DNA from: Rhodocyclales bacterium
GTDB taxonomy: Bacteria > Pseudomonadota > Gammaproteobacteria > Burkholderiales > Rhodocyclaceae
Reading direction: 5' to 3'
Length of the DNA stretch: 48,674 bases
Assembly: GCA_016177805.1 (NCBI GenBank)
Contig: JACOUN010000094.1
Location: 1 to 48,674 of the forward strand
Positions 1-22,608 of the stretch are shown here, piece after piece (position 1 is the first letter of the stretch; each line of letters opens with the position of its first letter). The notes beneath the pieces are model-generated. The model saw only the letters and a program-made list of their open reading frames with translations, was not told the DNA's origin and made no database searches. Made by a program: the position numbers and the translations under genes.

Positions 1-366
1 ATTGACCACTGGCGGCGGCAGGAACTGGAGCGCGCCTATCTCGATGCGCTGGCGCGATTGCCCGAGGCCGAGGCGCCGTCGGCGGAGGAGCAGGCGCTGC
101 TGCTAGAGCTGCTGGTGCGCATCGACACCGTGCTCGACGGGCTGCGCGCTCCGGTGCGCACCGCTTTCGTGCTGGCGCGGATCGAAGACCTGACGCATGC
201 CGAGATCGCGCGGCGCATGGGCGTGTCGCAGCGCAGCGTAGAGCGCTACGTAGCCGAGGCGCTGCTGCATTGCTACAGCCTGCGCTATGCGGTCGGAGAG
301 ACCGATATTGACGGCGCTGCGGGCGTTCCTGAGTCGTGGCGCGAAGGCTGCGGCCTGCAGGCCTGA
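1..366 (+). CDS. fecI: FecI-type ECF sigma factor, 3' part only
   Basis: The frame is open from the first base of the window, so the 5' end is missing; about 121 residues remain. ECF sigma factors of this group direct RNA polymerase to iron-uptake genes when a receptor and FecR signal across the envelope. The visible part is region 4: a linker with LRAPVRTAFVLARIEDLTH, then a helix-turn-helix with RRMGVSQRSVERYVAEALLH, close to the usual FecI ending. The last ~25 residues form a tail with no clear homology. fecR follows 17 bp downstream. A promoter-like element shared by three loci in this window is the likely target, which is inference. The family is clear; the exact signal is not. Confidence 0.9.
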   Translation: MDHWRRQELERAYLDALARLPEAEAPSAEEQALLLELLVRIDTVLDGLRAPVRTAFVLARIEDLTHAEIARRMGVSQRSVERYVAEALLHCYSLRYAVGETDIDGAAGVPESWREGCGLQA

Positions 367-383
367 GCGGCTCGCCCTGCCCC

Positions 384-1360
384 ATGAGCGCGCACTCGCG
401 GCAACCCGCGTCAGGACCGGCCATCGATCCCGCCATCGTCCGGCAGGCCGTGGCGTGGCTTGTCCGGCTGCAATCGGGCCAGCCCGATCAACGCGCGCAA
501 GCGGGCTGCCGCGCCTGGCGGTGCTCGATGGCGAGCTGCGCGGCGACGTCGCGCGGCTGCCGCCGGCCGCCAAGGACTGTGCGGTCCAGGCCCTGGCGGC
601 CGACCGCCGCGCCGAGCGGCGCCGCGTGCTCAAGGGGTTGGCGGTCGCGCTTGCGGTGGCACCCGCCGCGTGGCTCGCCGACGAACTGGCGCCGTGGCCG
701 CGCCCCAACGCCGACCATGCCACCGCCGTCGGCGAGCGGCGCGCCGTGACGCTGGCCGACGGCAGCGTACTGTGGCTCAACACCGACAGCGCGATCCAGG
801 TCCAATTCGACGACGAGCAGCGTCTGATCGTGCTGATGCGCGGCGAAGTCCACGTCAACAGCGGCGCGGACGGCGGTGCGGCGCGGCACCGGCCGTTGCG
901 CGTGCGCAGCCGGCACGCCTTGTTCGAGGCGCTGGGTACACGCTTTACCGTGCGCGACGACCCCGCATCCACGCGCCTGGTGGTCGAAGCGGGGGCGGTG
1001 GCGATGCGTCCTGACCGCGCCCGCGCCGAAGCCGCGACCGACCTTGCACGGGCTGGCGAGGCCTACCGGGTGGATCGTGAGCGGGTCACGCCGGCTGCCG
1101 CGCCGGACCATGGGGCGGCCTGGATCGACGGTCTGCTGGTCGCCGACGACATGCGCCTGGGTGAATTTCTCGCCGAACTGGCGCGCCACCGCCGAGGGCG
1201 CCTGTACTGCGACGAAGCGGTCGCCGCGCTGCGCTTGTCCGGTGTCTATCGGCTGGACGACTCCGACAAGCTGCTGGCCCTGCTGCCGCAGGTGCTGCCG
1301 GTGCGTGTCGAAACCCGCTTCGGGTTGTGGACGCGGGTGCTGCCGCGCGACCAAAAATAA
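384..1360 (+). pseudogene. fecR: fecR-like anti-sigma/signal transducer, frame broken
   Basis: FecR is an inner-membrane protein that passes the signal from a TonB-dependent receptor to FecI. The ATG at 384 opens a typical FecR N-terminus (IDPAIVRQAVAWLVRLQSG, then CRAWR) in one frame. From about base 512 the homology continues in another frame (RLAVLDGELRGDVARLPP) through a membrane helix and the periplasmic FecR domain (VTLADGSVLWLNTDSAIQV, RGEVHV) to the stop at 1358-1360. Family members usually have about ten residues between AWR and the next helix, and here they are missing. A short out-of-frame deletion near 512-520, at the motif cgcctggcg, would explain both facts. A sequencing error is the alternative. 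As read, no full-length FecR can be made. Confidence 0.8.
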
Positions 1361-1448
1361 TTTCGCGGCATGCTGTCGGGATGCGCGGTTTCGTCCGGCC
1401 TACAGGGGGAGCACTTTCCACGAACCTCGACCGGAGCCGGACCCCGAC
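1353..1448 (+). promoter_or_regulatory. FecI-type promoter/leader element, copy A
   Basis: This stretch matches bases 10729-10822 over almost its whole length. The core is gctgtcggg-N10-tcgtccggc followed by tacagggggagc, and both copies end in gaccccgac just before ATG. The CGTC (1392-1395) resembles the -10 element of ECF promoters and lies 57 bases before the start codon in both copies. A third, shorter copy lies at 8333-8377. Its place in front of receptor genes next to a FecI gene suggests it is that sigma factor's promoter; the -35 part cannot be fixed by eye. Confidence 0.65.
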
Positions 1449-3761
1449 ATGAGCCTTCACCACCCCCGACCATACAAACTCCCCATCGCGCTGGCGCTCG
1501 GTGTCGTGTGGGGTCTCGCGCCGCTCGCGGTGCTGGCCCAGCATGCTCAGTCCCACGAGGGGGGGGCCGACACAACCCTGCCGGCGGTCAACGTCAAGGC
1601 GGGCACCGAGGCGCCCTACAAGACCGACAGGGTCGCCAACCCCAAGATCACCCAGCCGCTGGTCGACACGCCGCAGACGTTCTCGGTAATCAACAAGGAG
1701 ATCCTGCGCGAGCAGGGGGCCGCCTCGCTGATGGAAGCCCTGCGCAACACGCCGGGCATCACCCAGCAGTTGGGCGAGGGGGGCAACACTTCGGCCGGCG
1801 ACGCGTTCCAGATGCGTGCGTTCTCGACCCAGACGGCCACCTTCGTGGATGGCATCCGCGACCTGGGCGCGATCACCCGTGACGTGTTCAACCTCGAACA
1901 GGTAGAAGTGGCGAAGGGGCCGGCCGGCGCCGACATTGGCCGGGGCGCGGCGTCGGGCTACATCAATCTGATCTCCAAGGTGCCGATGCTGGACGACGTG
2001 TACGGCGGCAGCGCGACCTGGGACAGCGCCGACCACAAGCGTCTGACGGCCGATGTGAACAAGCGGATCGGGCTAACCACCGCCATCCGCCTCAATGTGA
2101 TGACCCAGGGCGGCGGGGTCGCGGGGCGCGACTACGTCGAGAACAACGGCTACGGGGTCGCGCCGTCGCTGGCCTTCGGTCTGGGCACACCGACCCGCTT
2201 CTATCTCTACACCCAGCACATCCGCCAGGACAACGTGCCGGACGGCGGGATACCGACCATTGGCATGGACGGTTTCTACAACTCGAATGCCGCGATCCGT
2301 GGCGGCGCGAAGGTCGACCGGGAGAACTTCTACGGCAGCAAACGCGACGCCGAAAAGGTCGATGCCGACATGGCGACGGCCAGGGTCGAACATGACCTGG
2401 GCGGCGGGACGACCCTGCGGAACATGTCCCGCTACGGCCGCACCACCATGGATCGCGTCCTGACCAGCGTCAATAGCATCGCGGCCAAGAATGCCGCCGA
2501 TCCGTCCACCTGGACGGTGGAGCGCCGGCGCCAGCGGGTGGACCAGACCAACGACGTGCTCGCCAACCAGACCAACCTGACCACCGAGTTCGATACCGGA
2601 TCGGTGCGGCATTCGATGTCCGCCGGGCTGGAGTTCATCTACGAGCGTCAGAAGACCCTGGGCTTCGGCACGACCAAGCAGACCATCAACGGCGTGGACT
2701 ACGCCGCCATCAGCAGCCCGGCGGCCAGCCTGTACGACCCTGACCCCCGCGACGATCTCGGAATGCCGTACAAGACCGGCGCCGATACCGACGGCGACAC
2801 CCTGACCAGCGCCATCTACGCCTTCGATACGCTCAAGCTCAATGAGCGCTGGCAGTTGAGCGGCGGGCTGCGCTACGAGCACTACAAGACCAAAACGGAT
2901 GCACGGACGATCGTGACGGAGAGCAACGCCGCCACCTATCCGGGCTACACGCCCGGACAGCTCGCGCCCACCCGCTTCGACATCTCCGACAACCTGCTGA
3001 GCTGGAAGGTGGGGGTGTTGTTCAAGCCCGCCGCCAACGGCAGCATCTATGCCGCCGTCGCCAACTCGCTGACTCCGCCGGGCGGCGGCAACTTCGCCCT
3101 GTCGGCCAGTTCGACCAACCAGAACAGCGCGTCGATGGACCCGCAGAAAACCAGCAACATCGAGCTGGGCACCAAGTGGGATCTGCTCGACGAGCGCCTG
3201 AGCCTCAGCGGGGCGATCTACCGCACCGAGAACGACAAGCAGGTTTCCTTCAACCAGGACACCAGCACTTTCTCGCAGTTCGGCAAGACCCGCGTCGACG
3301 GCATCGAACTGGCCGTGGTCGGGCAGATCACCAACTTCTGGCAGGTCTCGGCCGGCGTGGCGAAGATGAAGACCAGGGCGCTCGACCAGGTCAGCCGCAA
3401 CAGCAGCGGCGTGGTGTCGGAGAGCGACGGGGTACGCTGGACCCCCGATCTGACGGCCACCTTGTGGACGTCCTACACCCTGGGCAAGTTCACCCTCGGT
3501 GGCGGCGCCCGCTACGTCTCCGACCAGAAGCGGGTGGTCACCAAGGGCACCGAGCTGGCGACCCAGAACATGCCGGAGATTCCGTCGTTCTGGGTGGCCG
3601 ACCTGATGGCTGCCTACAAGCTCGACAAGAACGTGAACCTGCGGCTGAACGTGTACAACCTGTTCGACAAGCGCTACATCAGCACCCTGAACAACAGTGG
3701 CGCGCGGATGGTGCTCGGTGCGCCGCGCTCGGCTTCGCTGACGGCGGAATTCCTGTTCTGA
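1449..3761 (+). CDS. TonB-dependent catecholate siderophore receptor (Fiu-like)
   Basis: Outer-membrane receptor of 770 residues for import of a ferric siderophore using TonB energy. A signal peptide of about 30 residues ends near VLAQ. The plug starts near LPAVNVKAGTEAPYKTDR and carries QVEVAKGPAGADIGRGAASG, the form typical of Fiu/CirA-type catecholate receptors. The beta-barrel follows and the protein ends in the expected aromatic residue (AEFLF). It has no N-terminal signalling (STN) domain, so it cannot itself feed the FecIR system. The ATG at 1449 was chosen because a signal peptide follows directly and the conserved leader ends there. The DUF1513 gene lies 38 bp downstream. Substrate is inferred from motif similarity only. 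Confidence 0.88.
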   Translation: MSLHHPRPYKLPIALALGVVWGLAPLAVLAQHAQSHEGGADTTLPAVNVKAGTEAPYKTDRVANPKITQPLVDTPQTFSVINKEILREQGAASLMEALRNTPGITQQLGEGGNTSAGDAFQMRAFSTQTATFVDGIRDLGAITRDVFNLEQVEVAKGPAGADIGRGAASGYINLISKVPMLDDVYGGSATWDSADHKRLTADVNKRIGLTTAIRLNVMTQGGGVAGRDYVENNGYGVAPSLAFGLGTPTRFYLYTQHIRQDNVPDGGIPTIGMDGFYNSNAAIRGGAKVDRENFYGSKRDAEKVDADMATARVEHDLGGGTTLRNMSRYGRTTMDRVLTSVNSIAAKNAADPSTWTVERRRQRVDQTNDVLANQTNLTTEFDTGSVRHSMSAGLEFIYERQKTLGFGTTKQTINGVDYAAISSPAASLYDPDPRDDLGMPYKTGADTDGDTLTSAIYAFDTLKLNERWQLSGGLRYEHYKTKTDARTIVTESNAATYPGYTPGQLAPTRFDISDNLLSWKVGVLFKPAANGSIYAAVANSLTPPGGGNFALSASSTNQNSASMDPQKTSNIELGTKWDLLDERLSLSGAIYRTENDKQVSFNQDTSTFSQFGKTRVDGIELAVVGQITNFWQVSAGVAKMKTRALDQVSRNSSGVVSESDGVRWTPDLTATLWTSYTLGKFTLGGGARYVSDQKRVVTKGTELATQNMPEIPSFWVADLMAAYKLDKNVNLRLNVYNLFDKRYISTLNNSGARMVLGAPRSASLTAEFLF

Positions 3762-3799: not shown

Positions 3800-4936
3800 A
3801 TGAACAACGCAATCGGCCGGCGTCGCTTTCTGCTGACTCTCGGCGCCCTGGGCATCTTCCCCAAGACCGGCCTGACCCTGAGTCCGGCGGGCGAAGCAGG
3901 GCTGGTGACCCTGATCGGTGCCGCCTGGCGGGGCCCCAATGCCGGCGATACCCACTATGCCGGCGTGCTGGCGGCGGACTGGGAGCGCAAGCAGCTCGAA
4001 ATCCGCTATGCGGTCCCCCTGCCGACCCGCCCGCATGGCCTGGTGCCCCAGGCCGACGGCGGACTGCTGGTGAATGGGGTGCGCCCCGGCACCTGGTTGT
4101 TGCGTTGCGACGGCGGCGGCAAGGTCATGCAGCAGGTCAAGGTCGAGGAAGAATCCGCCTCGGTGCGCCTGAGCGGCCACATCGTCGTCGGCCGCGATGT
4201 CATGTACACCACCGAGATCGACTACAACAACGACCGCGGCCGGATCGGCGTGCGCGACCGCGTGAGCCTGAAGAAGCTCGACGAGTGGGACGCCGGTGGC
4301 ATCGAGCCGCACCAGGCGCTGCTCGATGAGGCGGGCCACCTGATCGTGGCCAATGGCGGCGTGCCGCGCACGCTGGCGGACAAGAAGTACGACCTGCAGC
4401 GCATGGATTCTTCCCTGGTCCGGCTGGATGGCCAGAACGGCCGCTTGCTGCGCCAGTGGAAACTGGACGATCCCCGGCTCAGCCTGCGGCACATTGCCTG
4501 GAGCCAGGCGCCGGTGGGCGGCAAGACCTTTCTCGGGGTCGCCATGCAGGCCGAACACGACGATGCGGCCCGGCGCGCCGGCGCGCCGATCCTGGCTGTG
4601 TTCGACGGCGAGCAACTGACCACGCCGACCCGAGCCAACGACGGGCACGGTTACGCCGGCGATATCACCGCTGCCTACAACGGCGGCTTTGCACTGTCCA
4701 GCAACAAGGCGGGGGTGGCCCAGCTCTGGCATCCGGGAGCGCCCGACAAGCTGAGCGCCATCGTCGAGCTGGATGATGCCTATGCGCTGGCCGACTGGCC
4801 GGGCGCCAGCCGCGCCGGCGGCGTGCTGGTCGCGACCGCCATCGGCCTGGTGCGCTGGCATCCGAGCGCGCCGCCGGTGCTCCTGCCCTGGCCCCAGCCG
4901 ATGGCCCTGGACAACCATTGGGTGCGGATGGCCTGA
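3800..4936 (+). CDS. DUF1513 family protein with Tat-type signal
   Basis: A 378-residue protein with a good ribosome site (aaagggagg, 3782-3790) before the ATG. The N-terminus GRRRFLLTLGALGIF is a twin-arginine-like export signal, so the product is probably periplasmic. The rest is repetitive and rich in Gly and Trp, fitting the beta-propeller fold expected for DUF1513 (PHGLVPQADGGLLVNGVRPG, GIEPHQALLDEAGHLIVANG). Members of this family usually sit beside iron-uptake genes such as imelysin/EfeO-type proteins; here it directly follows a siderophore receptor and probably shares its transcript. The biochemical role is unknown. Confidence 0.8.
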   Translation: MNNAIGRRRFLLTLGALGIFPKTGLTLSPAGEAGLVTLIGAAWRGPNAGDTHYAGVLAADWERKQLEIRYAVPLPTRPHGLVPQADGGLLVNGVRPGTWLLRCDGGGKVMQQVKVEEESASVRLSGHIVVGRDVMYTTEIDYNNDRGRIGVRDRVSLKKLDEWDAGGIEPHQALLDEAGHLIVANGGVPRTLADKKYDLQRMDSSLVRLDGQNGRLLRQWKLDDPRLSLRHIAWSQAPVGGKTFLGVAMQAEHDDAARRAGAPILAVFDGEQLTTPTRANDGHGYAGDITAAYNGGFALSSNKAGVAQLWHPGAPDKLSAIVELDDAYALADWPGASRAGGVLVATAIGLVRWHPSAPPVLLPWPQPMALDNHWVRMA

Positions 4937-5141: not shown

Positions 5142-5642
5142 ATGATCGCAAAACTCATCGTCGCGCTCGCGGCCGTGTACCACATCTTCGCCACCGTCGC
5201 GGCCATCATGGCGGTCTTTCACTTCGCGCGCGTCCTGCGCGGCGAGGAACGCAGCCATCCACTGTGGCGGCGCTTCTTCGACTGGGGTGAAATGCACTTG
5301 TGGATCTCGGGCGCCATACTGATCGGCGCCGGTATCTATCTGAGCAGCCTCGCGGAGTATCTGAACAATCCCAAGCTGTGGACCAAGGTCAGTCTGGTGC
5401 TGCTGTGGGGGGCAAACTCCTACGGGATCAGGAAGACGATCCGGACCGCCTCGACCGCGCGGCAAAACCTGATGTTCGGAATCTCCACCGGCAGCCTGCT
5501 CTACGGTACCTTTCTGGGCGTCGGCAAGCCGCTGGCCTACGGCGTTCTGCCATTCCCCTGGTTTCTCGCCGGGCTGCTGGCGACCGTGGCGGCGTGCACT
5601 TACGCCATGAGCCGCATCGTTCCGCCCGTCCAATCCGCGTAG
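5142..5642 (+). CDS. Four-helix membrane protein beside the Nod-like gene
   Basis: A 166-residue integral membrane protein with about four hydrophobic helices. Histidines sit at helix edges (AVYHIFATVAA, VFHFARVLRG, GEMHLWISGAILIG), which could bind heme or a metal, though this is only suggestive. The frame is open further upstream, but the ATG at 5142 is chosen because the first helix begins at once. The ribosome site is weak. It ends 24 bp before the Nod-like gene, on the same strand, so the two are probably co-transcribed. I do not recognise the family with confidence; a CopD- or DUF2214-like protein is possible. Context suggests an assembly or electron-transfer partner of the downstream protein. 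Confidence 0.7.
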   Translation: MIAKLIVALAAVYHIFATVAAIMAVFHFARVLRGEERSHPLWRRFFDWGEMHLWISGAILIGAGIYLSSLAEYLNNPKLWTKVSLVLLWGANSYGIRKTIRTASTARQNLMFGISTGSLLYGTFLGVGKPLAYGVLPFPWFLAGLLATVAACTYAMSRIVPPVQSA

Positions 5643-5666: not shown

Positions 5667-8006
5667 GTGCATCATTCCGGACAACCCGGCATTGCCCGCC
5701 TGCTGTTGAGCAGGAAGTACTGGATGTCCTACTTCCTGTTCGTCACCCTCGTCAGCGTTGCTGGATTGCTCTACCTGGGCCGGGCGACCTACAGCGACGC
5801 ACCGCCGCTGGGCGATTTCGTCTCGGCGGCCGGCGAGGTGGTGGTCGCCCGGCACGACATCCAGCGGGGGCAGGAGGTGTTCCTGCAGCGTGGCTTGATG
5901 GCCTACGGCTCGTTCTGGGGCGATGGCGCCGAGCGGGGGCCGGATTTCAGCGCCGATGCGCTGCGCCAGACCACTCTGGCGATGCGGGCATTCCATGCCG
6001 CCAGGGCCGGGGGAACGCTTACCGAGGACGACCGCGACGCCATCGCCGCCCGCGTCATCCGCGAACTCCGGCACAACGGCTGGGACCGTGACAGCGGCCG
6101 CATTGCCATCGGCGAGGCGCGCGTTCACGCTTACGCGCGCCTGCGCGCGCACTATGCGAGCGTGTTTGGCGACGCCACCTATCCGGGCCACATCCGGCTC
6201 GGGCATGCGCTGGCGCCCGACGACATCCGCGCCCTGTCGGCCTTCCTGTACTGGGGCGCCTGGGTGGCGGTGGCCGAGCGCCCCGGCGAGCGCCACAGCT
6301 ATACCCACAACTGGCCTTACGATCCTGATGCCGGCAACACCCCGACGCCGGCCACCTATCTGTGGAGCGTCGTGTCCATCCTCGTGCTGTTCCTCGGCAT
6401 CGGTCTGGTGCTCTACGTGTATGGCCAGATGAAGGTCATTTTCCCCGAGCCGTTTGGCGATCCGGGCGGGCAGGGCGCGCGCCCGCTCACCACTTCCGAT
6501 TTCGAGCGCGGGGTGGTGCGGGCCACGCAGCGGGCGACCTTCAAGTTCTTCGCGCTGGCGATGATCGCGTTCGGGTTGCAGATCGTCGCCGGGATATTGT
6601 GCGCCACCGATTTCGTCCGCCCCTACGGCCTGTTTCTGGGAGACATCATTCCGTTCTCGGTGGCGCGCAGCTACCACACGCTGTTCCAGATCTTCTGGTT
6701 CTTCATGTGCTGGGTGGGCTATACCCTGTTCTTCCTGCCTCGCCTTGCGCCGGTTCCCGTGGGCCAGCGGTTGCTGATCGACATCCTGTTCGGCCTGTGC
6801 CTGCTCGTGGCGGTGGGGTCGCTGGCCGGCATCTATCTCGGCCAGACCGGGCTGCTGACCGGCGAGGCGGGCTACTGGCTGGGTAGCCAGGGGTGGGAAT
6901 TCATGGAGTTCGGCCGCGCCTTCCAGATTCTGTTGCTGCTCGCGTTCTCGCTCTGGATCTTGATCATCTACCGCGCCGTGAAGCCGTGGCTGACGCGCAA
7001 GAACCTGTGGTCGGTGCCGGCCTGGCTGCTCTACGGCAGCGGCGTCATGGTGTTCTTCCTGTTCTTCGGCCTGCTCGTGGCGCCCGAAACCAATTTTGCC
7101 GTGGCCGACTTCTGGCGCTGGATGGTCGTGCACATGTGGGTGGAAGTCACCTTCGAGGTGTTCACCACCGTGATCGTCGCCTACATGCTGGTGCAGATGA
7201 ATTTCATCACCCGCGCGATGGCCGAGCGCACCATCTTTCTGGCGGTGATGATGTTCCTGTTCACCGCCACGCTCGGCGTCGCCCACAACTTCTACTGGAT
7301 CGGCAAGCCGACCGGCATCATCGCGCTGGGCAGCGTGTTCTCGACCCTCCAGGTGCTGCCCCTCATCCTCCTCACCCTCGATGCCTGGGCGATGCGGCAG
7401 AAGGGGGCGCAGGCCGGCGCGCGCCTGGCCGACACCAGCAGCGTGTCGATGGGCGAGGTGTGGCTGTTCATTCTGGCGGTGAACTTCTGGAACGTGTTCG
7501 GCGCCGGCGTGCTCGGCTCGCTCATCAATCTGCCGATCGTCAACTACTTCGAGCACGCCACCTATCTCACCAACAACCACGCCCACGCCGCCATGTTCGG
7601 CGTCAAGGGCAACATCGCCCTGGGCGGCATGCTGTTCTGCTGCCAGCACCTGTTCCCGCGCGCCCGGTGGAATGCGCGGCTGGTGCGGCTGTCGTTCTGG
7701 TCGTTGAATATCGGCCTGGCGCTGATGATGTTCCTCGATCTGTTCCCGGTCGGGGTGTACCAGCTCATGGCTGTGTTCGAGCACGGATTCTGGTACGCGC
7801 GCTCCGCCGAGATCGTGGAAGGCAGCGTGTTCCGCACGCTTACCGCATTCCGCTCGGTCGGCGGCGCGGTGTTCGTGCTGGGCGGGCTGCTGCCGCTGAT
7901 GTGGTTCGTGCTGTCGCGCGCGGCAAGCCTGCTGTCCGAGTCGACGCGGGTGCAACACGAGCGCGCTTCGCGCGAGGGACTCTGGGCCGGTGAGACGAAT
8001 GGCTGA
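5667..8006 (+). CDS. nod: Putative nitric oxide dismutase (Nod-like, qNOR family)
   Basis: A 779-residue heme-copper superfamily protein with qNOR architecture: one N-terminal helix, a ~200-residue periplasmic domain, then a 12-13-helix core. Kept features are the low-spin heme ligand H337 (SVARSYHT), FeB ligand H489 with E493 and E497 (VHMWVEVTFE), H540 (GVAHNFYW), and H638/H640 (TNNHAHAAMFG). Changed features are three. The quinol motif HYYVE...F reads T314-D-F-V-R318...L322. The second FeB histidine of the HH pair is N541. The glutamate of the usual SALEV motif is Q562 (STLQVLPL). The spacings H489-H540-N541-Q562 equal those of Geobacillus qNOR H508-H559-H560-E581. From established knowledge, loss of the quinol site with these substitutions marks putative NO dismutases of Methylomirabilis and strain HdN1. 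The GTG start at 5667 follows tggagt. Activity is not proven; a divergent NO reductase is the alternative. Confidence 0.8.
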   Translation: MHHSGQPGIARLLLSRKYWMSYFLFVTLVSVAGLLYLGRATYSDAPPLGDFVSAAGEVVVARHDIQRGQEVFLQRGLMAYGSFWGDGAERGPDFSADALRQTTLAMRAFHAARAGGTLTEDDRDAIAARVIRELRHNGWDRDSGRIAIGEARVHAYARLRAHYASVFGDATYPGHIRLGHALAPDDIRALSAFLYWGAWVAVAERPGERHSYTHNWPYDPDAGNTPTPATYLWSVVSILVLFLGIGLVLYVYGQMKVIFPEPFGDPGGQGARPLTTSDFERGVVRATQRATFKFFALAMIAFGLQIVAGILCATDFVRPYGLFLGDIIPFSVARSYHTLFQIFWFFMCWVGYTLFFLPRLAPVPVGQRLLIDILFGLCLLVAVGSLAGIYLGQTGLLTGEAGYWLGSQGWEFMEFGRAFQILLLLAFSLWILIIYRAVKPWLTRKNLWSVPAWLLYGSGVMVFFLFFGLLVAPETNFAVADFWRWMVVHMWVEVTFEVFTTVIVAYMLVQMNFITRAMAERTIFLAVMMFLFTATLGVAHNFYWIGKPTGIIALGSVFSTLQVLPLILLTLDAWAMRQKGAQAGARLADTSSVSMGEVWLFILAVNFWNVFGAGVLGSLINLPIVNYFEHATYLTNNHAHAAMFGVKGNIALGGMLFCCQHLFPRARWNARLVRLSFWSLNIGLALMMFLDLFPVGVYQLMAVFEHGFWYARSAEIVEGSVFRTLTAFRSVGGAVFVLGGLLPLMWFVLSRAASLLSESTRVQHERASREGLWAGETNG

Positions 8007-8377: not shown

Positions 8378-8539
8378 CATCCAGCCGTTCCCGGTTGATG
8401 GTTGATGGCGATTGCGCGCGGGTCAGGCATGGCGCGATCGCCTGTTTCCTCCTCTTGTTTGATTGTTGCCCGCCGCAGGGTGGAATCGATTGAACGAGCT
8501 TGGTCGAGGAACCTGCAACAAGGTTCCTCGACATTTTTT
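8365..8539 (+). ncRNA. Candidate iron-responsive short transcript or tonB attenuator
   Basis: A transcript begun at element C (CGTC 8355-8358) and ended at the terminator 8503-8539 would be about 175 nt. It holds only a short open frame (8398-8493, about 31 codons) with no recognisable product. It could be a small RNA induced with the siderophore receptors, or an attenuated leader of tonB-exbB-exbD. No direct evidence of expression is available. Confidence 0.4.
8503..8539 (+). terminator. Rho-independent terminator upstream of tonB
   Basis: A perfect 12-base stem, gtcgaggaacct (8503-8514) and aggttcctcgac (8521-8532), with a 6-base loop gcaaca, is followed by a run of six T (8534-8539). There is no matching T-run on the other strand, so it acts on plus-strand transcription. 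Confidence 0.85.
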
Positions 8540-8646
8540 GCGACACGAACTCGACGGAACAAACCGATGTACGTACTTCATCCTTCCGTGGCGCGCGGCC
8601 GGCGCGCCTGCACCTCGAACGGCGTTGCGCCGAACGGTACCCCGGC

Positions 8647-9351
8647 ATGAGCACTTTCGAACGCACCATTACCGTCGTTGCGGTAGCCGTGCTCCACCTT
8701 GGACTGGTGGCCTGGGTTACGTCCAGCCACGGGCAGACGCCGCCCAAGGTCGTGCCGCCCGCGATTCAGGGGGTGTTGATTCCGGCTGAAGCGCCGACGC
8801 CGCCGCAACCGCTGCCGATGGCACCCGAGCCGCCGCCGCCCGAGCCTCCCGCACCTGAGCCGCCCAAACCGGTGCCCAAGCCCGAGCCGAAACCCAAACC
8901 GAAGCCGAAGCCCAAACCCCTCCCGCAGCCGCCGTCGGAAAAGGCGATCACCGTGCCGGAAGAGACGTCCGAGCCCGTGCCTGCATCGACGCCGCTTCAG
9001 CACGCGGCCGCACCGCGCGCCGAGCCCGCGCCGCGTCCGGCGCCCGGCCCTCCGGTCGAAGCGCCGGTCACGCCGCCCCGCGTGGATGCGTCGCACCTCG
9101 ACAATCCGGCGCCGCGCTACCCGCCGCTGTCGCGGCGAATGGGGGAAGAAGGGCGGGTGCTGCTCGATGTGCACATCATGCCGGATGGTTCGGTGAGTGA
9201 AGTGCGGCTGCGAAGTTCCAGCGGTTCCGAGCGCCTGGACGCGGCTGCGATCGCCGCCGTACAGCGTTGGCGCTACGTGCCGGCGCGCCGGGGCGACGAG
9301 AACATCGCGTACTGGTATGTGCAGCCCATCGTGTTCTCACTGACCAAGTAA
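8647..9351 (+). CDS. tonB: Energy-transducing protein TonB
   Basis: A 234-residue protein that spans the inner membrane and periplasm and hands proton-motive energy from ExbBD to outer-membrane receptors. It has an N-terminal anchor helix (TITVVAVAVLHLGLVAWVT), a long Pro/Lys/Glu-rich rod at about residues 45-110 with KP/EP repeats, and a TonB C-terminal domain (YPPLSRRMGEEGRVLLDVHI ending in YVQPIVFSL). The ATG at 8647 is chosen because the anchor helix follows at once; the frame is open further upstream without family features. exbB and exbD follow. This set can serve the three receptors in the region. Confidence 0.95.
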   Translation: MSTFERTITVVAVAVLHLGLVAWVTSSHGQTPPKVVPPAIQGVLIPAEAPTPPQPLPMAPEPPPPEPPAPEPPKPVPKPEPKPKPKPKPKPLPQPPSEKAITVPEETSEPVPASTPLQHAAAPRAEPAPRPAPGPPVEAPVTPPRVDASHLDNPAPRYPPLSRRMGEEGRVLLDVHIMPDGSVSEVRLRSSSGSERLDAAAIAAVQRWRYVPARRGDENIAYWYVQPIVFSLTK

Positions 9352-9424
9352 TCCGCGCCGCGCGGCGGGCGCGGGACGTGCCGCCGCGCACCCCGATCAG
9401 ACATAGCCAATCACAGGAGTCCTC

Positions 9425-10288
9425 ATGCAAGATCAACTCGCAACCCCCCCCCAAACCACCCGCTCCGGCCTCGACGCAGCGCCTGTTCCCGACGCCATCG
9501 CCTCGCCCGTGCCTGGTCCCGATGTGCTGCCGGCGGCGGGCGGCGCTCCCGGCGGTGACGAGGTGCTGCTGTCCAACCCCTATGGCGTCGAAGCGCTGTG
9601 GTCGCAAGGCGACCTGGTGATCAAGGTGGTGGCCGTGCTGCTGCTGTTGATGTCCATCGCCTCGTGGTACGTCATCGTCAGCCGGGGTATCCGTGCCGTG
9701 CGCCTGCGCCGTGCGGTCAAGCGCGCGCATCTGTTCTGGCACGCCCAGAACGTCGAGGAAGGTATGGACCTGATGGGTGGCGACGCGGCCCGCAATCCGT
9801 TCCGCCGCCTGGTCGAAGACGGCACGCACGCGTGCGACCACCATGCCGCGCGCAAGGAAGAGCTGCACGGCCAACTCAGCCTCAGCGACTGGCTGATCGC
9901 GTGCCTGCGCACCGCCATCGACGAAAGCGCCGAGCGCATGCAGAGCGGGCTGTCGGTGCTGGCCTCGGTGGGGTCGACCGCGCCCTTCGTCGGTCTGTTC
10001 GGCACGGTCTGGGGGATATACCACGCCCTGGTGGGCATCGGCGTGGCGGGGCAGGCCAGCATCGACAAGGTCGCCGGCCCGGTCGGCGAGGCACTGATCA
10101 TGACCGCCTTCGGCCTGGCGGTCGCGATCCCGGCGGTGCTCGGCTACAACGCGCTGGTGCGCAACAACAAGGGGGTGCTCGGTCAGCTCAACCGCTTCGC
10201 CCACCATCTGCATGCCTTCCTGGTGACCGGCGCGCCGGTGGCGAACCCCAGGCTCAAGGTCGCGCGGATCACCAGGGAGGCGTCCTGA
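9425..10288 (+). CDS. exbB: TonB-system energiser ExbB
   Basis: A 287-residue inner-membrane protein of the MotA/TolQ/ExbB proton-channel family. About 50 low-complexity Pro/Ala/Gly residues precede the first helix (VIKVVAVLLLLMSIASWYVI). The conserved block GSTAPFVGLFGTVWGIYHAL and a last helix (FGLAVAIPAVLGYNALV) mark the family. The start ATG at 9425 has caggagt just upstream. exbD begins one base after its stop, so the two are translationally linked. The N-terminal extension is longer than in E. coli ExbB (244 residues) but common in this order. Confidence 0.95.
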   Translation: MQDQLATPPQTTRSGLDAAPVPDAIASPVPGPDVLPAAGGAPGGDEVLLSNPYGVEALWSQGDLVIKVVAVLLLLMSIASWYVIVSRGIRAVRLRRAVKRAHLFWHAQNVEEGMDLMGGDAARNPFRRLVEDGTHACDHHAARKEELHGQLSLSDWLIACLRTAIDESAERMQSGLSVLASVGSTAPFVGLFGTVWGIYHALVGIGVAGQASIDKVAGPVGEALIMTAFGLAVAIPAVLGYNALVRNNKGVLGQLNRFAHHLHAFLVTGAPVANPRLKVARITREAS

Positions 10289-10289
10289 A

Positions 10290-10706
10290 ATGGCATTCGG
10301 CAACGGACTGGAGGACACCGGCGACAGCGAGATGAGCGAGATCAACATGATTCCGCTGGTCGATATCATGCTGGTGCTGCTGATCATCTTCATCATCACC
10401 GTGCCGGTGGTGACCCACACGGTCAAACTCGATCTGCCGCGTGCCACCAACGAACCCAACGTCGTCCCGCCGCGCTCGATCACGATCGCGATCACGGCCG
10501 ACGGTGAGGTGCATTGGGACAAGGAGAGCGTGGATGAGTCGCGCCTGATTGCCAACCTTGAAGCGGTGGCGAAACAGGACCCGCAACCGGAGGTGCACGT
10601 GCGCGGCGATCGGCGGGTGGAATACGAACGGGTCATCAAGGTCATGGCCGCCGCCCAGCAGGCGGGCCTGAACAAGCTCGGCTTCGTCACCTCGCCGGAC
10701 GACTGA
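10290..10706 (+). CDS. exbD: TonB-system protein ExbD
   Basis: A 138-residue single-helix protein, partner of ExbB. The motif EINMIPLVDIMLVLLIIFII holds the conserved aspartate in the membrane helix that carries the proton. The periplasmic domain (ITADGEVHWDKESVD, VHVRGDRRVEYERVIKVM) matches ExbD/TolR. A ribosome site (agggagg) lies inside the end of exbB. It closes the tonB-exbB-exbD operon; the next receptor has its own FecI-type element 23 bp downstream. Confidence 0.95.
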   Translation: MAFGNGLEDTGDSEMSEINMIPLVDIMLVLLIIFIITVPVVTHTVKLDLPRATNEPNVVPPRSITIAITADGEVHWDKESVDESRLIANLEAVAKQDPQPEVHVRGDRRVEYERVIKVMAAAQQAGLNKLGFVTSPDD

Positions 10707-10728
10707 ATTCGTCAGTTGCACGGCTGGC

Positions 10729-10822
10729 AAAAAACTTCGCGGCGCGCTGTCGGGTTTGGCGGTCTCGTCCGGCTTACAGGGGGAGCGCCTTACATAAACC
10801 CCGGACGGAGACCGACCCCGAC
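10729..10822 (+). promoter_or_regulatory. FecI-type promoter/leader element, copy B
   Basis: Near-identical to 1353-1448: ttcgcggcgcgctgtcggg, then tctcgtccggc, ttacagggggagc and accccgac before ATG. CGTC lies at 10766-10769, again 57 bases before the start codon. The similarity extends through the whole 5' leader, so the element was probably duplicated as a unit or is under selection beyond the core promoter. Confidence 0.65.
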
Positions 10823-13246
10823 ATGAGCCCCCATTTTCCCCGACCATCGCGCACCAGGCTGCCGTGCGCGGCCTTGCGCGCGGCGCTCGGTTGCGCGGTG
10901 TTCGGGGCGATGGTCGGCACGTCGGGCGCGCTGGCGCAGCAGGGCGCCGCGCCGGACGAGGGGGCGGCGGCGTTCGTGCGTGCCTACGACGTTCCCGCCG
11001 GACCGCTGGCCCAGGCCTTGAATCAGTTTGCCCGCAGCGCCGGGGTCACCCTGTCATTTACCCCGCAACAGGTGCAAGGCCGCTCCAGCCAGGGTTTGTC
11101 GGGGCGGCATTCGGTGGGTTCGGGGCTGGCCGCGCTGCTGGCCGGCAGCGGCCTGCGCGTGCGTGCCGATGCGGCGGGCTACGTGGTCGAAGCCGACCCC
11201 GTGGCGCCGCTTGAACCGGCTCGCCCGCCCGCGCGCACCGCCGAACTGGCCTTGCCCGAGGTGAAGGTGCGGTCCACGCCGGAACGCGCACCGTTGGTCG
11301 GGCCGGCGGGCGGCTTCATCGCCCGGACCGATACCCCGCTCATTGAAATCCCGCGCTCGATCCAGATCGTCGAACGCGAGACGCTGGAACGGCAGAACCC
11401 CGTGACGCTGCCGCGGGCCATGCGCAACGTCAGCGGCGTCGCCGAGGGCAGCGGCTCAACCTACGGGTTCTTCGACCGCTTCCTGTTGCGCGGGCTGGAA
11501 GCCAATTTCCTGCGTGACGGCCTGCCCGACGGCCCGGCCGTCAACGGCTACTCGCGCACGCTGCTGGGCATCGACCATATCGAGGTGCTCAAGGGACCGG
11601 GGTCGGCGCTGTTCGGTCAAGGCAACCCCGGCGGCTCGATCAACCTGGTGCGCGAGGCCGCCTCCGCCACGCGCGAGGGGCATGCCGGCATCAGCATCGG
11701 GTCGTTCGGGCGCAAGTCGGTGCGGGGCGATGTTTCGGGGCCGATCGGCGAGGGCGCGTTGCGTTACCGCGTCGATGCGCAGGTGGCCAGGGCGGATGGC
11801 TATCGTGGCCTCGACACCGGCTTCGATGAAGCCGTCGCGGCGCTCGAATGGCACTTGCCGCGACACACCGGCGCGGTGACGCTGGAGCATCGCCGGCAGG
11901 ACATCCTGGCCGACAACTACGGCATTCCGTTCCGTGGCGACACGCTGCTCGCGGTGCCGCTGGACAGCCGCTACTACACCCCCTTCGGCGGCGTGGACCA
12001 GCGCGTGACGCGCCTGGGCGCGGCCGACCGCTGGCGTTTGTCCGAGCACGTCGAGATCAACCACCGCTTCGCCTGGCTGAAGCGCGATGTCAGCATCCTG
12101 CGCAATGCCGGCGGCACGGTCAGCACCACCGACACCACGATGGGCGGGCGCCAGTTGCGCCGCCAGGTCGATGACGCCGCCGATCTCACCGTGCAGGTCG
12201 AGCCGGTGTTCCGCTTCACCACCGGACCGGTGCGCCACACGCTGCTGGGCGGCCTCGAATACCAGCGCCGCACCCTCGACGCGCGGCGCGAGACCGCCAA
12301 GCTCCCCGCGATTGCCGACGTGTTCGCGCCCGTCATTGTCGAGACCTCGCCCGCCGGGCTGGCGTTCACCAACAACTTCACGCGCGCGCTCACGCTGGCT
12401 ACCCGCGCGTTCTACCTCACCGACCAGCTCACCGTGGGTGAGCGGTTGAACCTGCGCGCCTCGGCGCGCGTGGACCGCTTCGCCACCGACGGCGAGGACA
12501 GCGCCACGGGCCGCAACACGCGGCGCGACACCAGGGTGAGCTGGGAGCTGGGCAGCAGCTACGAAGTGCTGCCGGGGGTGCTGCCCTTCGTCGGGGTGTC
12601 GCGCAGCCACCTGGTGCCGTTGTCCAGCGAGACCAGCAACGTCGACCGCGCACCCGAGCAGGCCACGCAGCGCGAGCTTGGGGTCAAGTTCAGGCTGCCC
12701 GCGTGGGGGCTGGAGGCCACGCTGGCGGCCTACGACACGCGGCGCGAGAACTTCCTGCAAACGGTGGGCGGGGAGGTCATGCCGGTGGGCGAGCAGCGCA
12801 CCCGTGGCCAGGAGATCGACATCGACTACCGTCCGCTGCCGTGGCTGCGCCTGTCCGGCAACCTCAGCCGCCAGGACGCCAGGCTCACCCACCTGCCGCA
12901 GACCCCCGCCGACCAGGGCAATCGTCCGGCCGGCGTGCCGCGCAACCTCGGTTCGCTGTGGGTCAATGCCGAATTCCCGGTGGCGCGGGCGCGCTGTGGC
13001 GCGCGCATCGGCGGTGGTCTGGGGGTGCGCAGACAAGGCGCGGTCCATGCCGACAACGCCAACACGCGCGTGGTGCCTGGCTACACGGTGGTTGATGCGG
13101 CGCTGTACTACCGCGCCAGCTTCGGCGAAGTGCGGCTTGATATGCGCAACCTGACCGATCGCCGCCACTACCGCTATGCACTGTTTGGCGGCGCCTTTCC
13201 CGGCGAGCCGCGTTCGGCGTCGGTGACGGCGCGCATCAACTTCTGA
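10823..13246 (+). CDS. TonB-dependent siderophore receptor with STN signalling domain (FecA/FpvA type)
   Basis: An 807-residue outer-membrane receptor. A signal peptide ends near GALAQ (residue 39). Residues ~52-125 form a secretin/TonB short N-terminal domain (YDVPAGPLAQALNQFARSAG, then GLRVRADAAGYVVE), the part that contacts FecR. The plug follows (IEIPRSIQIVERETLERQNP, IEVLKGPGSALFGQGNPGGS), then the barrel to the C-terminal ARINF. This is the only receptor here with a signalling domain, so it is the natural partner of the FecI/FecR pair at the left end, nine kilobases away. The siderophore is not known. The ABC transporter genes follow 25 bp later. Confidence 0.9.
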   Translation: MSPHFPRPSRTRLPCAALRAALGCAVFGAMVGTSGALAQQGAAPDEGAAAFVRAYDVPAGPLAQALNQFARSAGVTLSFTPQQVQGRSSQGLSGRHSVGSGLAALLAGSGLRVRADAAGYVVEADPVAPLEPARPPARTAELALPEVKVRSTPERAPLVGPAGGFIARTDTPLIEIPRSIQIVERETLERQNPVTLPRAMRNVSGVAEGSGSTYGFFDRFLLRGLEANFLRDGLPDGPAVNGYSRTLLGIDHIEVLKGPGSALFGQGNPGGSINLVREAASATREGHAGISIGSFGRKSVRGDVSGPIGEGALRYRVDAQVARADGYRGLDTGFDEAVAALEWHLPRHTGAVTLEHRRQDILADNYGIPFRGDTLLAVPLDSRYYTPFGGVDQRVTRLGAADRWRLSEHVEINHRFAWLKRDVSILRNAGGTVSTTDTTMGGRQLRRQVDDAADLTVQVEPVFRFTTGPVRHTLLGGLEYQRRTLDARRETAKLPAIADVFAPVIVETSPAGLAFTNNFTRALTLATRAFYLTDQLTVGERLNLRASARVDRFATDGEDSATGRNTRRDTRVSWELGSSYEVLPGVLPFVGVSRSHLVPLSSETSNVDRAPEQATQRELGVKFRLPAWGLEATLAAYDTRRENFLQTVGGEVMPVGEQRTRGQEIDIDYRPLPWLRLSGNLSRQDARLTHLPQTPADQGNRPAGVPRNLGSLWVNAEFPVARARCGARIGGGLGVRRQGAVHADNANTRVVPGYTVVDAALYYRASFGEVRLDMRNLTDRRHYRYALFGGAFPGEPRSASVTARINF

Positions 13247-13271
13247 CCCAACCCGAAAAAGAGACCCGACC

Positions 13272-13979
13272 ATGCTGCAAGCCACCCAACTGAGCAAGCG
13301 CTTTGGCGACCACCCGGCGCTCGACGCGCTCACGCTTTCCATCGCCCCCGGCGAGGTGTTCTGCCTGCTCGGCCCCAATGGCGCCGGCAAGACCACCACC
13401 ATCAACCTGTTCCTCGGCTTCCTGGCGCCCACCCAGGGCTTAGCGCGCGTGGACGGGCAGGACGTGGCCGCCGACCCCGACGCCGCGCGCGCGCGCCTGA
13501 GCTACCTGCCGGAACAGGTGGCGCTGTACCCGCATCTGTCGGGCCTGGAGAACCTGCGCTTCTTCGCCGGCGTCTCCGGGGCCGCCACCGATGCACCCAC
13601 CCTGAGGCAATGCCTGGCCGATGCCGGTCTGCAACGCGACGCGTTCGACCGGCGTGTGTCCGGCTACTCCAAGGGCATGCGCCAGAAGGTCGCGGTGGCG
13701 CTGGCGCTGCTGCGCGCGAGCAAGGCGCTGCTGCTGGACGAGCCGACTTCCGGACTGGATCCGCAGGCCTCGCGCGAGTTCGCCGGGTTGATCGGCAGAC
13801 TGCGCGAGCGCGGACTGGCGGTGCTGATGGCCACCCACGACCTGATCCACGTGAAGGACGTCGCGACCCGCATCGGCATCATGAAGGCCGGACGCCTGGT
13901 GACCGAGTTCGCCGCCGCCGACGTGTCGCATGAGCAACTGCAACAGGCCTACCTCGACCAGATCGGCGGTGCCGCATGA
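13272..13979 (+). CDS. ABC transporter ATP-binding protein
   Basis: A 235-residue ATPase with Walker A (GPNGAGKTTTINLF), a signature motif in the form YSKGMRQKVAVALALL, Walker B (ALLLDEPTSGLD) and the H-loop (MATHDLIH). It is closest in style to the CcmA/NosF group that energises ABC-2 type permeases. The stop overlaps the next ATG (ATGA), so it is coupled to the permease. It lies between two siderophore receptors and starts 25 bp after the first. Direction and substrate of transport cannot be read from the sequence. Confidence 0.93.
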   Translation: MLQATQLSKRFGDHPALDALTLSIAPGEVFCLLGPNGAGKTTTINLFLGFLAPTQGLARVDGQDVAADPDAARARLSYLPEQVALYPHLSGLENLRFFAGVSGAATDAPTLRQCLADAGLQRDAFDRRVSGYSKGMRQKVAVALALLRASKALLLDEPTSGLDPQASREFAGLIGRLRERGLAVLMATHDLIHVKDVATRIGIMKAGRLVTEFAAADVSHEQLQQAYLDQIGGAA

Positions 13980-15400
13980 AGCGCGCCGTCGCGATCGCCG
14001 CCAAGGACCTGCGCGAAGCCGCCGGTGATGGCCGCGCGCTGCTGGCCTGGGCGCTGGCCGTGGCGGTGCTGCTGGTGGCCGCGCTGCAAGGCTGGGCCAC
14101 CCAGCGACAGGCCGAAGCCGAACGCACCGAGGTCTCGGCGCGGGTGCGCGCGCAATGGGAAACGCAGGGCGACAAGAACCCGCATGCCGGCGCGCATTTC
14201 GGCCAGTACGTGTTCCAGTCCGCCGGCCTGGCCGCCTTCATCGACCCCGGCGTCAGCGCCGAGGCCGGGCGCGCCATCTGGCTCGACCCGCACCGGCGCA
14301 ACCTGGCGCGCTTCAAGCCGGCCGAGGACCAGTCGCCGGCGGCGCGGCTGGCGCGCGGCGGCGTCGATGCGGTGCTGCAATGGGTGCTGCCGCTGCTGGT
14401 GGTGCTGCTTGGCTTCGGCGCGGTGGCGGGCGAACGCGAGGCCGGCACCTGGCGCCTGCTGGCCAGCCTGGGGGTCACGCCGGGGCGGCTGTTCGCCGGC
14501 AAGCTGACCGGCCTGGGGCTGGTGCTGGTACCGATGCTGGCGTTCTTCGGCGCGGCGCTGGCGCTGGCCGCCGTGCAGGAAGGCGCGGGTGGCCCCGACA
14601 CGCTGGCGCGCATCGCGTTGCTGGCAGGGCTGTACACGCTGTATCTGGCGATCTTCGGCTTCATCGCGCTGGGTGTTTCGGCGCGCGCGGCCTCGGCCTC
14701 GCGATCGCTGGCGTTGCTGCTGGTGCTGTGGGGGCTGAACGGGTTCGTTGCGCCGCGCCTGGGGTCGGCCATCGCCGAGGCGGCCGTCAGCCTGCCCTCG
14801 TCGGAGCAGTTCCACGCCGCGATCCACCACGACATCCAGCACGGCATGGACCAGGACGGCGACGCGGACGCGCGCTATCAGCGCTTCCTCGCCGCCACGC
14901 TGGAGAAGTACCGCGTCAGTCGCGCCGAAGACCTGCCGGTGGGCCTGCGCGGTCTGCGCCTGCTCGATAACGACGGCTATTCCGCACGCGTGCACGAGAA
15001 GCACTTCAACGCACTGGAAGACCGCTTCATCGCGCAGGCCGACTGGCAACTCGCCGCCTCGCTCGCCGGTCCGCTGCTGCCGGTGCGAACGCTGTCCCAG
15101 GCGCTGGCCGGCACCGACATCCGCCACCACGCGCACTTCGCGCGCGCCGCCGAGGCGTACCGGCGCGGTTTTGTCGACGCCACCAGCGAGCGCATCGCGC
15201 AGCACAACGCCGGCACGGTCAACACGGCCCTGGCCGACAACACGTTCTGGAAATCGCTGCCGCCCTTCGACTACCAGCCACCCGCGTGGACCTGGGCCCT
15301 GGCCGGGCAGTGGCGGGCACTGGCGCTGCTGGCCGTCTGGCTGCTGGGCGCGGCCTGGTTCGCGGTCAGCGGGTTCAAGCGCCTGGCGCGGGAGGTTTGA
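13976..15400 (+). CDS. ABC-2 type permease, DUF3526-like (first)
   Basis: A 474-residue membrane protein: one N-terminal helix (LLAWALAVAVLLVAALQGWA), a large periplasmic loop, then about five helices starting near VLQWVLPLLVVLLGFGAVAG and the conserved EREAGTWRLLASLGVTPGRL. A second large soluble stretch precedes a final C-terminal helix. This layout is that of ABC-2 permeases with a DUF3526 region. The next gene begins at the base after its stop. It probably forms a heterodimer with that gene product on the ATPase at 13272. Confidence 0.85.
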   Translation: MKRAVAIAAKDLREAAGDGRALLAWALAVAVLLVAALQGWATQRQAEAERTEVSARVRAQWETQGDKNPHAGAHFGQYVFQSAGLAAFIDPGVSAEAGRAIWLDPHRRNLARFKPAEDQSPAARLARGGVDAVLQWVLPLLVVLLGFGAVAGEREAGTWRLLASLGVTPGRLFAGKLTGLGLVLVPMLAFFGAALALAAVQEGAGGPDTLARIALLAGLYTLYLAIFGFIALGVSARAASASRSLALLLVLWGLNGFVAPRLGSAIAEAAVSLPSSEQFHAAIHHDIQHGMDQDGDADARYQRFLAATLEKYRVSRAEDLPVGLRGLRLLDNDGYSARVHEKHFNALEDRFIAQADWQLAASLAGPLLPVRTLSQALAGTDIRHHAHFARAAEAYRRGFVDATSERIAQHNAGTVNTALADNTFWKSLPPFDYQPPAWTWALAGQWRALALLAVWLLGAAWFAVSGFKRLAREV

Positions 15401-16888: not shown

Positions 16889-16980
16889 TCACGATTTCCT
16901 CCAACACCGCCTCATCGCCAGCCGCCAAGCCAGCCGGGGCACCGATCCATCAATCCATCCCGCACTTCGAGGTTTCAAGC

Positions 16981-20235: not shown

Positions 20236-20321
20236 ATCTGGTACCCAGGTTGGGGGTATCCTTTGCTGCACGCGAGGGGACGGGCGCCGGCGCCGGGTTT
20301 TCATGACAAGGGGTGACTCAA

Positions 20322-21755: not shown

Positions 21756-21770
21756 TCGGAGAACAGGGAC

Positions 21771-22403
21771 ATGGCTAAATTCACACATGAAATGATAGAG
21801 CGCAGCGTCGGCCTGATGATCGTGCTGACGTTGCTGACGGTAAGCGTGGGCGGTCTGGTCGAGATCGTGCCGCTGTTCTTCCAGGACACGCTGACCAAGC
21901 CCATCGATCGCGAGGGCAACCCGCTCGACATCAAGCCCTACGGCGCGCTGCAACTGACCGGGCGCGACATCTACGTGCGCGAGGGCTGTTACAACTGCCA
22001 CTCGCAGATGATCCGTCCGTTCCGCGCCGAAACCGAGCGCTACGGGCACTACTCGGTCGCGGGCGAGTTCATCTACGACCGTCCGTTCCAGTGGGGGTCC
22101 AAGCGCACCGGGCCGGACCTGCAGCGGGTCGGCGGGCGTTACTCGGATGAGTGGCACCGGGTGCATCTGAACAATCCGCGCGACGTGGTGCCGGAGTCGA
22201 ACATGCCGGCCTTCCCGTGGCTGGAGCGCCCGGCCGATGCGGCGATCATCGAGCACAAGATGCGGACCCTGCGTGCCATGGGCCATCCCTACAGCGATGC
22301 GGATATCGCCGGTGCGCGCGCGGCGCTTGACGGCAAGACCGAGATGGATGCCCTGATCGCCTATCTGCAGGGCATGGGCACGGCGCTGTCCAACTTCAAG
22401 TAG
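21771..22403 (+). CDS. ccoO: cbb3-type cytochrome c oxidase subunit II
   Basis: A 210-residue membrane-anchored monoheme cytochrome c. One N-terminal helix ([20 protein letters not shown]) is followed by a periplasmic domain with the heme site [13 protein letters not shown] methionine in SNMPAFPW is the likely axial ligand. It passes electrons from CcoP to CcoN. It lies 15 bp after ccoN, with ccoQ 18 bp downstream. Confidence 0.97.
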
Positions 22404-22421
22404 CGCGTCGGGGGAGTGCTC

Positions 22422-22604
22422 GTGGATATCAATGACGCAAGAACGATCGTGACGGTGCTGGGATTGCTGTGTTTCATCGGAATCTGCACGTGGGCGTACA
22501 GCCGTCACGCCAAGTCCGGGTTTGATGAAGCGGCGCAACTGCCCTTTACAGATGACGATGTGCCGGATGCGCGCGAGGCGCGCCGGCATTCCAAGGAAGG
22601 ATAA
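22422..22604 (+). CDS. ccoQ: cbb3-type oxidase small subunit CcoQ
   Basis: A 60-residue single-helix protein (IVTVLGLLCFIGICTWAYS) with a short acidic cytoplasmic tail (FTDDDVPD), typical of CcoQ, which stabilises the complex. The GTG at 22422 is chosen over 22416 because the ribosome site gggggag ends at 22416. ccoP starts 4 bp later. Confidence 0.92.
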   Translation: MDINDARTIVTVLGLLCFIGICTWAYSRHAKSGFDEAAQLPFTDDDVPDAREARRHSKEG

Positions 22605-22608
22605 GAAG

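Follow-up and report, generated by a model that had tools for sequence, protein, structure and literature searches.

The DNA analysed here, referred to as the window, is a stretch of 48,674 nucleotides (G000:C11:1-48674) from a Rhodocyclales bacterium, whose metagenome-assembled genome (MAG) of 3.48 Mb has a completeness of 91.15% and a contamination of 0.36%. Judged by its sequence, one open reading frame (ORF) of the window codes for a protein of the nitric oxide dismutase (Nod) family with the predicted fold of a quinol-dependent nitric oxide reductase (qNOR). This gene, nod, lies within a segment of about 20 kb that is rich in iron-uptake genes and adjoins a cluster for a cbb3 oxidase (Table 1). 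The Nod family, its marks and the idea of dismutation are already known; papers are cited by accession, and statements drawn from them are limited to excerpts of those papers.

Table 1. Features of the window, with residues numbered in the nod product
Feature	Position	Strand	Basis or remark
FecR and TonB-dependent receptor genes, upstream of nod	287..3761	+	domain matches
DUF1513 gene, upstream neighbour	4016..4936 (domain part of ORF 3176-4936)	+	domain match
Small membrane protein	5142..5642	+	some relatives bear PF09980 or the name DUF2214
nod, putative NO dismutase	5667..8006	+	GTG start, 779 aa; PF00115, PF22085, trees
T314, in place of quinol-binding His (Geobacillus His328)	6606..6608	+	alignments
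R318, where qNORs carry Glu/Asp	6618..6620	+	alignments
H337, heme ligand kept	6675-6677	+	alignments; ligand roles from PMC13087809 (excerpt)
H489 to E493, metal-site His and Glu kept	7131..7145	+	alignments
H540-N541, second metal His kept, Asn in place of third	7284..7289	+	alignments
Q562, replaces catalytic Glu (Geobacillus E581)	7350..7352	+	alignments
H638 and H640, heme b3 and heme b ligands kept	7578..7586	+	alignments; ligand roles from PMC13087809 (excerpt)
G733, replaces quinol-binding Asp (Geobacillus Asp746)	7863..7865	+	alignments
TonB, ExbB, ExbD, two TonB-dependent receptors and ABC transporter, downstream of nod	8500..19149	+	iron-uptake-like
cbb3 oxidase cluster	20313..25578	+	ccoN, ccoG, fixH recognised; ccoO, ccoP by position

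The nod product matches PF22085 (NorB_cytochrome_c-like) at residues 51-218 and PF00115 (COX1) at residues 290-734, and it has the qNOR-type hydrophilic domain, in which a sequence scan found no heme c motif CxxCH. All 13 of its matches in the PDB are named NO reductases, led by the Geobacillus qNOR 3ayf (E 1.4e-136), and no NCBIfam model matched the protein at E 0.001. The 120 listed relatives, where named, are mostly called 'nitric oxide reductase subunit B' or 'cbb3-type cytochrome c oxidase subunit I', with the label 'nitric oxide dismutase' on two (P0082, P0090). An AlphaFold2 model built with 48 sequences reached a mean predicted local distance difference test (pLDDT) score of 80.7 and a predicted template modelling (pTM) score of 0.85. 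When this model was submitted to Foldseek, qNORs took ranks 1-10 and cNORs ranks 11-12, with 3ayf first at template modelling (TM) scores of 0.87/0.90. The gene is under purifying selection, the ratio of nonsynonymous to synonymous polymorphism (pN/pS) being 0.29 against locus L002 and 0.20 against L004, with a third comparison (against L003) saturated. Its GC content at third codon positions is 0.90, compared with 0.77-0.89 in seven other window genes.

Taken alone, the identical predicted fold and an identity of about 29-32% to solved qNORs would be consistent with a divergent yet canonical quinol-dependent NO reductase. The residues at the active and quinol sites argue otherwise. They were compared between 72 full-length Nod rows with the His-Asn pair at 540-541 and Gln at 562 (H-N-Q) and 32 qNOR rows. 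The Nod set combines the window and five family relatives with 66 rows taken from 65 named loci; left out of it were seven partial loci (L064, L065, L066, L069-L072), L074 and L075, which stand on the contigs of L002 and L004, and L001 and L107, which are the window itself. Also uncounted were further stretches on L047 (partial) and L059 (interrupted by stops), as well as distant relatives (25-27%) with His-His-Glu on L018 and L070. An earlier reading of the letters of this DNA, here the original prediction, had listed T314, R318, L322, H337, H489, E493, H540, N541, Q562, H638 and H640, and our alignments place every one of them as it claimed. The spacing it had matched to the Geobacillus qNOR is also correct, with a constant offset of 19 (H508-H489, H559-H540, H560-N541 and E581-Q562). 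N541 and Q562 are shared by the full set of 72 Nods and missing from all 32 qNORs, where His and Glu take their places; when the query and its 120 best database matches are read, both residues stand in 121 of 121 proteins. On these counts, the pattern is not a matter of chance. H337, H489, H540, H638, H640, E493 and E497 are invariant across all 72 Nods and 32 qNORs.

The claimed loss of the quinol site stood in two of its three residues. Column 314 is His in all 32 qNORs and in three Nods (L076, L078 and L079), and is Thr in the window; column 318 is Glu in 31 qNORs and Asp in one, and is Arg in the window and in 47 of the 72 Nods. L322, by comparison, is uninformative, since the qNORs themselves carry Ile (16), Phe (7), Leu (6), Val (2) or Tyr (1) in that column, 24 of the 32 having Ile, Leu or Val, and the two groups are not separated. 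As read from the alignments, G733 is an additional mark of quinol-site loss, overlooked by the original prediction, and a better one than L322: the Nods have Gly (69), Ala (2) or Ile (1), and the qNORs have Asp in 31 of 32 rows, the remaining row being a gap. Arg729 is retained in all 72 Nods. Column 727, which aligns with Trp718 of the proposed outer quinol site of AxqNOR and is Ala in the window, is not diagnostic, with Trp in 31 of 32 qNORs and also in 18 Nods. In the Geobacillus qNOR, Asp746 binds a quinol analogue (residue roles in the excerpt of PMC3413370), and changing the homologous His, Arg and Asp of Persephonella qNOR abolished activity, as cited in PMC13087809. Ettwig 2012 (PMC3413370, excerpt) names exactly these residue changes as marks of a putative Nod.

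Two trees agree with the residues. In a quick IQ-TREE analysis of 86 rows (the 72 Nods and 14 of the 32 qNORs), Nods and qNORs are separated with an SH-aLRT support of 99. The partners of the window are L004 and L002, both from Rhodocyclaceae/Rhodocyclales, at 100, and the three Bdellovibrionota loci L003, L008 and L010 join next at 100; gammaproteobacterium HdN1 (L058) and Methylomirabilis (L047) lie elsewhere inside the same 66-row Nod clade. A careful bootstrapped tree of 30 rows (19 of the 72 Nods and 11 of the 32 qNORs) recovers the Nods as a single clade at 100/100, the window with L004 at 97/96, and these two with L002 at 100/100. The window thus stands with the Nods, together with HdN1 and Methylomirabilis and outside the qNORs, and no placement inside the canonical qNORs was seen in either tree. 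With the marks described in PMC3413370 (excerpt), this bears out the membership in the Nod family that the original prediction had put forward.

The border between the two groups is not empty. Two His-His-Glu qNORs of the order that have the quinol residues (L152, in genome G352, and L155, in G304) take an intermediate position in the careful tree, with the remaining qNORs on one side and the Nods on the other. At 31 columns that separate the groups, the window carries the Nod letter in 30 and these two in 10 each; 29 of the other 30 qNORs carry it in 0 or 1 and L149 in 2. These counts are partly circular because the columns were picked on the same rows. L152 and L155 may possibly be relatives of the ancestor that gave rise to Nod. 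They lend some room to a canonical assignment of the window protein, which we nevertheless regard as extremely unlikely, since that protein falls outside the qNORs in both trees, has N541 and Q562 where no qNOR does, and carries the Nod letter in nearly all of the separating columns.

Two side observations were made on the same set of loci. The Flavobacteriales MAG L062 carries two different tandem nod genes (7408-9684 and 10001-12310), which fall in separate Nod clades, both on long branches, and L059, from a deltaproteobacterial MAG, has a second nod-like stretch with stops (12381-14105) directly after its nod.

Within the family, a search of 297 genomes at E 1e-200, a threshold that weaker Nods would escape, gave eight positives, all showing H-N-Q. 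Three are of the window type (the window's own genome, with G141 and G171 at 83-84% identity) and five are of a second type (45-47% in this search); the same-genus genome G037 had no nod match at that threshold. Across 399 genomes of the order, 52 passed E 1e-60, with scores of at most 465 bits apart from the window's own, and the 29 of these that were read (L130-L158) all have His-His-Glu. Since only three of the 297 family genomes have the window type and the same-genus genome has none, nod probably arrived by transfer or was patchily retained. The original prediction had further held that a Nod in this host would widen the known range of light-independent O2 production, which proved overstated. 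Database records from several phyla contain nod genes, and two copies from Rhodocyclales/Rhodocyclaceae are 82-84% identical to that of the window. In excerpts of the literature, nod has been reported in 66 of 1,362 MAGs, Burkholderiales among others (PMC13386854, 2026), in groundwater MAGs of Sediminibacterium and Algoriphagus (PMC10264387) and in MAGs from a denitrifying benzene culture (PMC8099898). Our incomplete literature coverage of nitric oxide dismutase together with Rhodocyclaceae, in excerpt, returned no report of nod in a Rhodocyclaceae genome, and absence from print is not claimed.

The setting of nod raises the question of whether it belongs to this genome. Collinearity with the same-genus genome G037 begins only at position 19963, from where two blocks on its contig C43 extend to 35235 with 75% DNA identity (query 16001-36000) and include the cbb3 cluster; window positions 1-19962 have no match in the roughly 37 kb of G037:C43 beyond the collinearity point, and nod and the small membrane gene have no match in G037 at the cut-offs used. 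A binning or assembly artefact, in which the nod-bearing segment of 1-19.9 kb came from another organism, would account for this pattern. We consider it very unlikely, given that the segment and the rest of the window lie on a single contig and that the closest nods come from the same bacterial family. The tetranucleotide profile of positions 1-19900 also correlates at 0.79-0.80 with the remainder of the window and at 0.78-0.84 with three other pieces of the host genome, against 0.13 (L003) to 0.81 (L163) with 14 stretches of other genomes, a weak comparison in that family members overlap.

The small membrane gene upstream has a stop codon that ends 24 bases before nod. It was dropped as a candidate partner because its protein occurs in two of the 297 family genomes at E 1e-10, one of which (G011) has no nod match at E 1e-200, and because the genus-named ones among its 54 relatives are from Uliginosibacterium, Vogesella and Roseateles; nor was it matched near nod in the 72 other loci. 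Between it and the DUF1513 gene, a GC-rich inverted repeat was noted by eye at 4987-5034 and may be a terminator or a repeat element. Neighbours within 6 kb of nod were also clustered over 76 loci, with L165 and L166 replacing L002 and L004. The recurring families, labelled from their letters, are ferredoxin-like (18 loci), PAS-like (11) and cytochrome b-like (8); they are mostly gammaproteobacterial and the window is not among them. In Steroidobacterales, according to excerpts of PMC13386854, nod is surrounded by iron-receptor genes, and in Burkholderiales it has cytochrome c peroxidases next to it. On L162 (G073), a gene read from its letters as peroxidase-like stands immediately upstream of a second-type nod. 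Sites resembling TTGATNNNNATCAA, which are FNR-like, are enriched in the window (19 compared with 6.2 expected), among them 19963-19976 and 20222-20235, both just upstream of ccoN, as well as 29673-29686 and 32966-32979.

The host appears to belong to the Rhodocyclaceae family group f1, shared with G141 and G171, and its ccoN scores above the curated cut-off, which agrees with the cbb3-bearing Rhodocyclales host of the original prediction. It is likely a denitrifying bacterium. Pieces of narG lie on contigs C63 and C19, a sign of assembly breaks in the MAG. A cytochrome cd1 protein on C98 (509.5 bits, with an N-terminal CAGCH heme motif) is read as a putative NirS, no NCBIfam model of that name having matched, and the NirK model found no match in the host genome. 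The nosZ gene is of clade I, the twin-arginine translocation (TAT)-dependent kind, at 988.8 bits against a cut-off of 625.

Six COX1-family matches were found in the host genome, namely Nod, CcoN, L123:6477-8168, L123:12365-13759, L124:6451-8124 and L125:4900-6462. B-type oxidases have a Tyr after the metal His (GHPVVYFW and GHPIVYFW); the proteins at L123:6477 and L125 do not, reading GHSSQQIN and GHVFINAT instead. NO-reducing members of this group are known to lack the Tyr as well. No canonical qNOR or cNOR was found in the host genome, the MAG being incomplete; from the oxidase sequences, other NO reductases are likely present. The 464-aa oxidase-like protein on L123 was not accepted as a cNOR because it had no PDB match at E 0.001, although the PDB includes cNORs. 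The L123:6477 oxidase, which the host carries on another contig than nod, shares 62.6% identity with one encoded near nod on L069, and in five of the 76 loci (L019, L026, L032, L033 and L069) nod lies near a two-subunit B-type oxidase in whose subunit I GHSSQQ or GHMSQQ replaces the Tyr motif.

For the function of the protein, we consider it moderately probable that it binds two NO and, as predicted, releases N2 and O2 rather than N2O. The kept ligands suggest that the protein carries heme b, heme b3 and a non-heme metal, and two NO molecules would likely bind at the heme b3/non-heme metal centre. The loss of the quinol His and Asp suggests that no electrons are taken from quinol, and the Glu to Gln change points to an altered proton supply at the active site. 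Since quinol electrons would be lost and the proton supply changed, the usual conversion of 2 NO to N2O and water would be impossible, and both N atoms would pair to N2 and both O atoms to O2. The NO would presumably be supplied by NirS; the main consumer of the O2 would be the cbb3 oxidase, with its genes 12 kb from nod, or else scattered oxygenases.

The same protein might instead be an NO-detoxifying reductase that forms N2O from NO with electrons from some other carrier and releases no O2. Retention of the heme ligands, E493, E497 and Arg729 in all 72 Nods would suit such an enzyme, as would a host nosZ that could consume its N2O and the presence of NnrS and a Crp/FNR-type regulator on the contig that carries nod; NO detoxification by Nod is also raised in PMC13386854 (excerpt). 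Against this, the window has other residues in place of the catalytic Glu and of the quinol His, Glu and Asp, no gene for an electron carrier was recognised next to nod, and the neighbours of nod in the window do not recur in the 72 loci save for the ABC ATPase (6 loci), the receptor (1) and the regulator (2). We judge a detoxifying reductase to be rather unlikely.

Several observations weigh against dismutation to N2 and O2. In excerpts of the literature, Ettwig 2012 (PMC3413370), who proposed NO dismutation, itself terms it speculation, no Nod has been isolated and biochemically characterised, and opposing results exist (PMC13386854). The 86-row tree carries long-branch warnings, one of them at the qNOR-Nod split, and the AlphaFold2 model is weak at residues 621-623 and 629-636 and contains no hemes or metals. 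The host keeps nosZ and two oxidases without the active-site Tyr (L123 and L125), so other routes for forming and consuming N2O are probably open to it, and its removal of NO would not have to depend on Nod. Among the window proteins that were scanned, none was recognised as belonging to an oxygenase family, and the sole Rieske oxygenase match of the host has a counterpart in the nod-less same-genus genome; such matches occur in five of nine genomes, the nod-less one included. A search of these nine genomes for Phenol_Hydrox (PF02332) gave no match, and as the control matched nowhere either, absence is not shown. The 19 other window genes, compared with the surroundings of nod in the 72 loci, yielded no specific recurring partner beyond the three exceptions above. 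The stretch that separates nod from its upstream genes showed no FNR/NnrR-type site with the pattern applied, and the NsrR half-site pattern likewise gave no match ahead of the gene; regulation of nod by NO was set aside, nothing here linking the two.

If release of N2 and O2 is nonetheless the outcome, a broader scenario can be sketched, in which a denitrifying member of the Rhodocyclaceae acquired nod in an iron-uptake island beside its cbb3 genes, makes O2 from its own NO and respires it in the dark without external oxygen, alongside otherwise ordinary denitrification. As a whole this is tentative and doubtful. Were Nod to make O2, denitrifiers of the Rhodocyclaceae would be able to produce oxygen without light, with genes for a low-oxygen oxidase close by. 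Genes for nod also occur in records titled as the named strains Roseovarius amoyensis GCL-8 (L013), Terasakiella brassicae CGMCC 1.15254 (L025) and Magnetovibrio blakemorei MV-1 (L068), which could make the Nod product directly testable.

In summary, this analysis contributes a third copy of the window type from Rhodocyclaceae and finds that the family also has a second Nod type; it introduces G733 as a mark, discards L322 as one, and describes the accessory-island setting of nod. The closest known relatives are the nods of the two Rhodocyclales/Rhodocyclaceae MAGs (L002 and L004), its sisters in the trees, yet a search with 19 other window genes gave no match close to their nod. G141 and G171, which hold copies of this type, also differ from the window genome in that each has a canonical His-His-Glu qNOR (L109 and L110). 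The second type (L076-L080, in G073, G255, G227, G120 and G116) shares H-N-Q and G733 with the window; it is only 44-47% identical to it, forms its own clade in the 86-row tree (with three of the five also placed in the careful tree) and, in L076, L078 and L079, keeps the His at 314. The solved qNORs 3ayf and 8bgw resemble the window protein in fold, heme ligands, E493 and E497, and differ in having His-His, the catalytic Glu and the quinol His, Glu and Asp. By comparison, the putative Nods of gammaproteobacterium HdN1 and Ca. Methylomirabilis are 58% identical to it, are likewise full length and share the H-N pair, the Gln in place of the catalytic Glu and the loss of the quinol His and Asp. 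They come from other hosts, no window neighbour of nod was found near theirs, and, unlike R318 and G733 of the window, residue 318 is Lys in HdN1 and Gly in Methylomirabilis, and residue 733 is Ile in HdN1.

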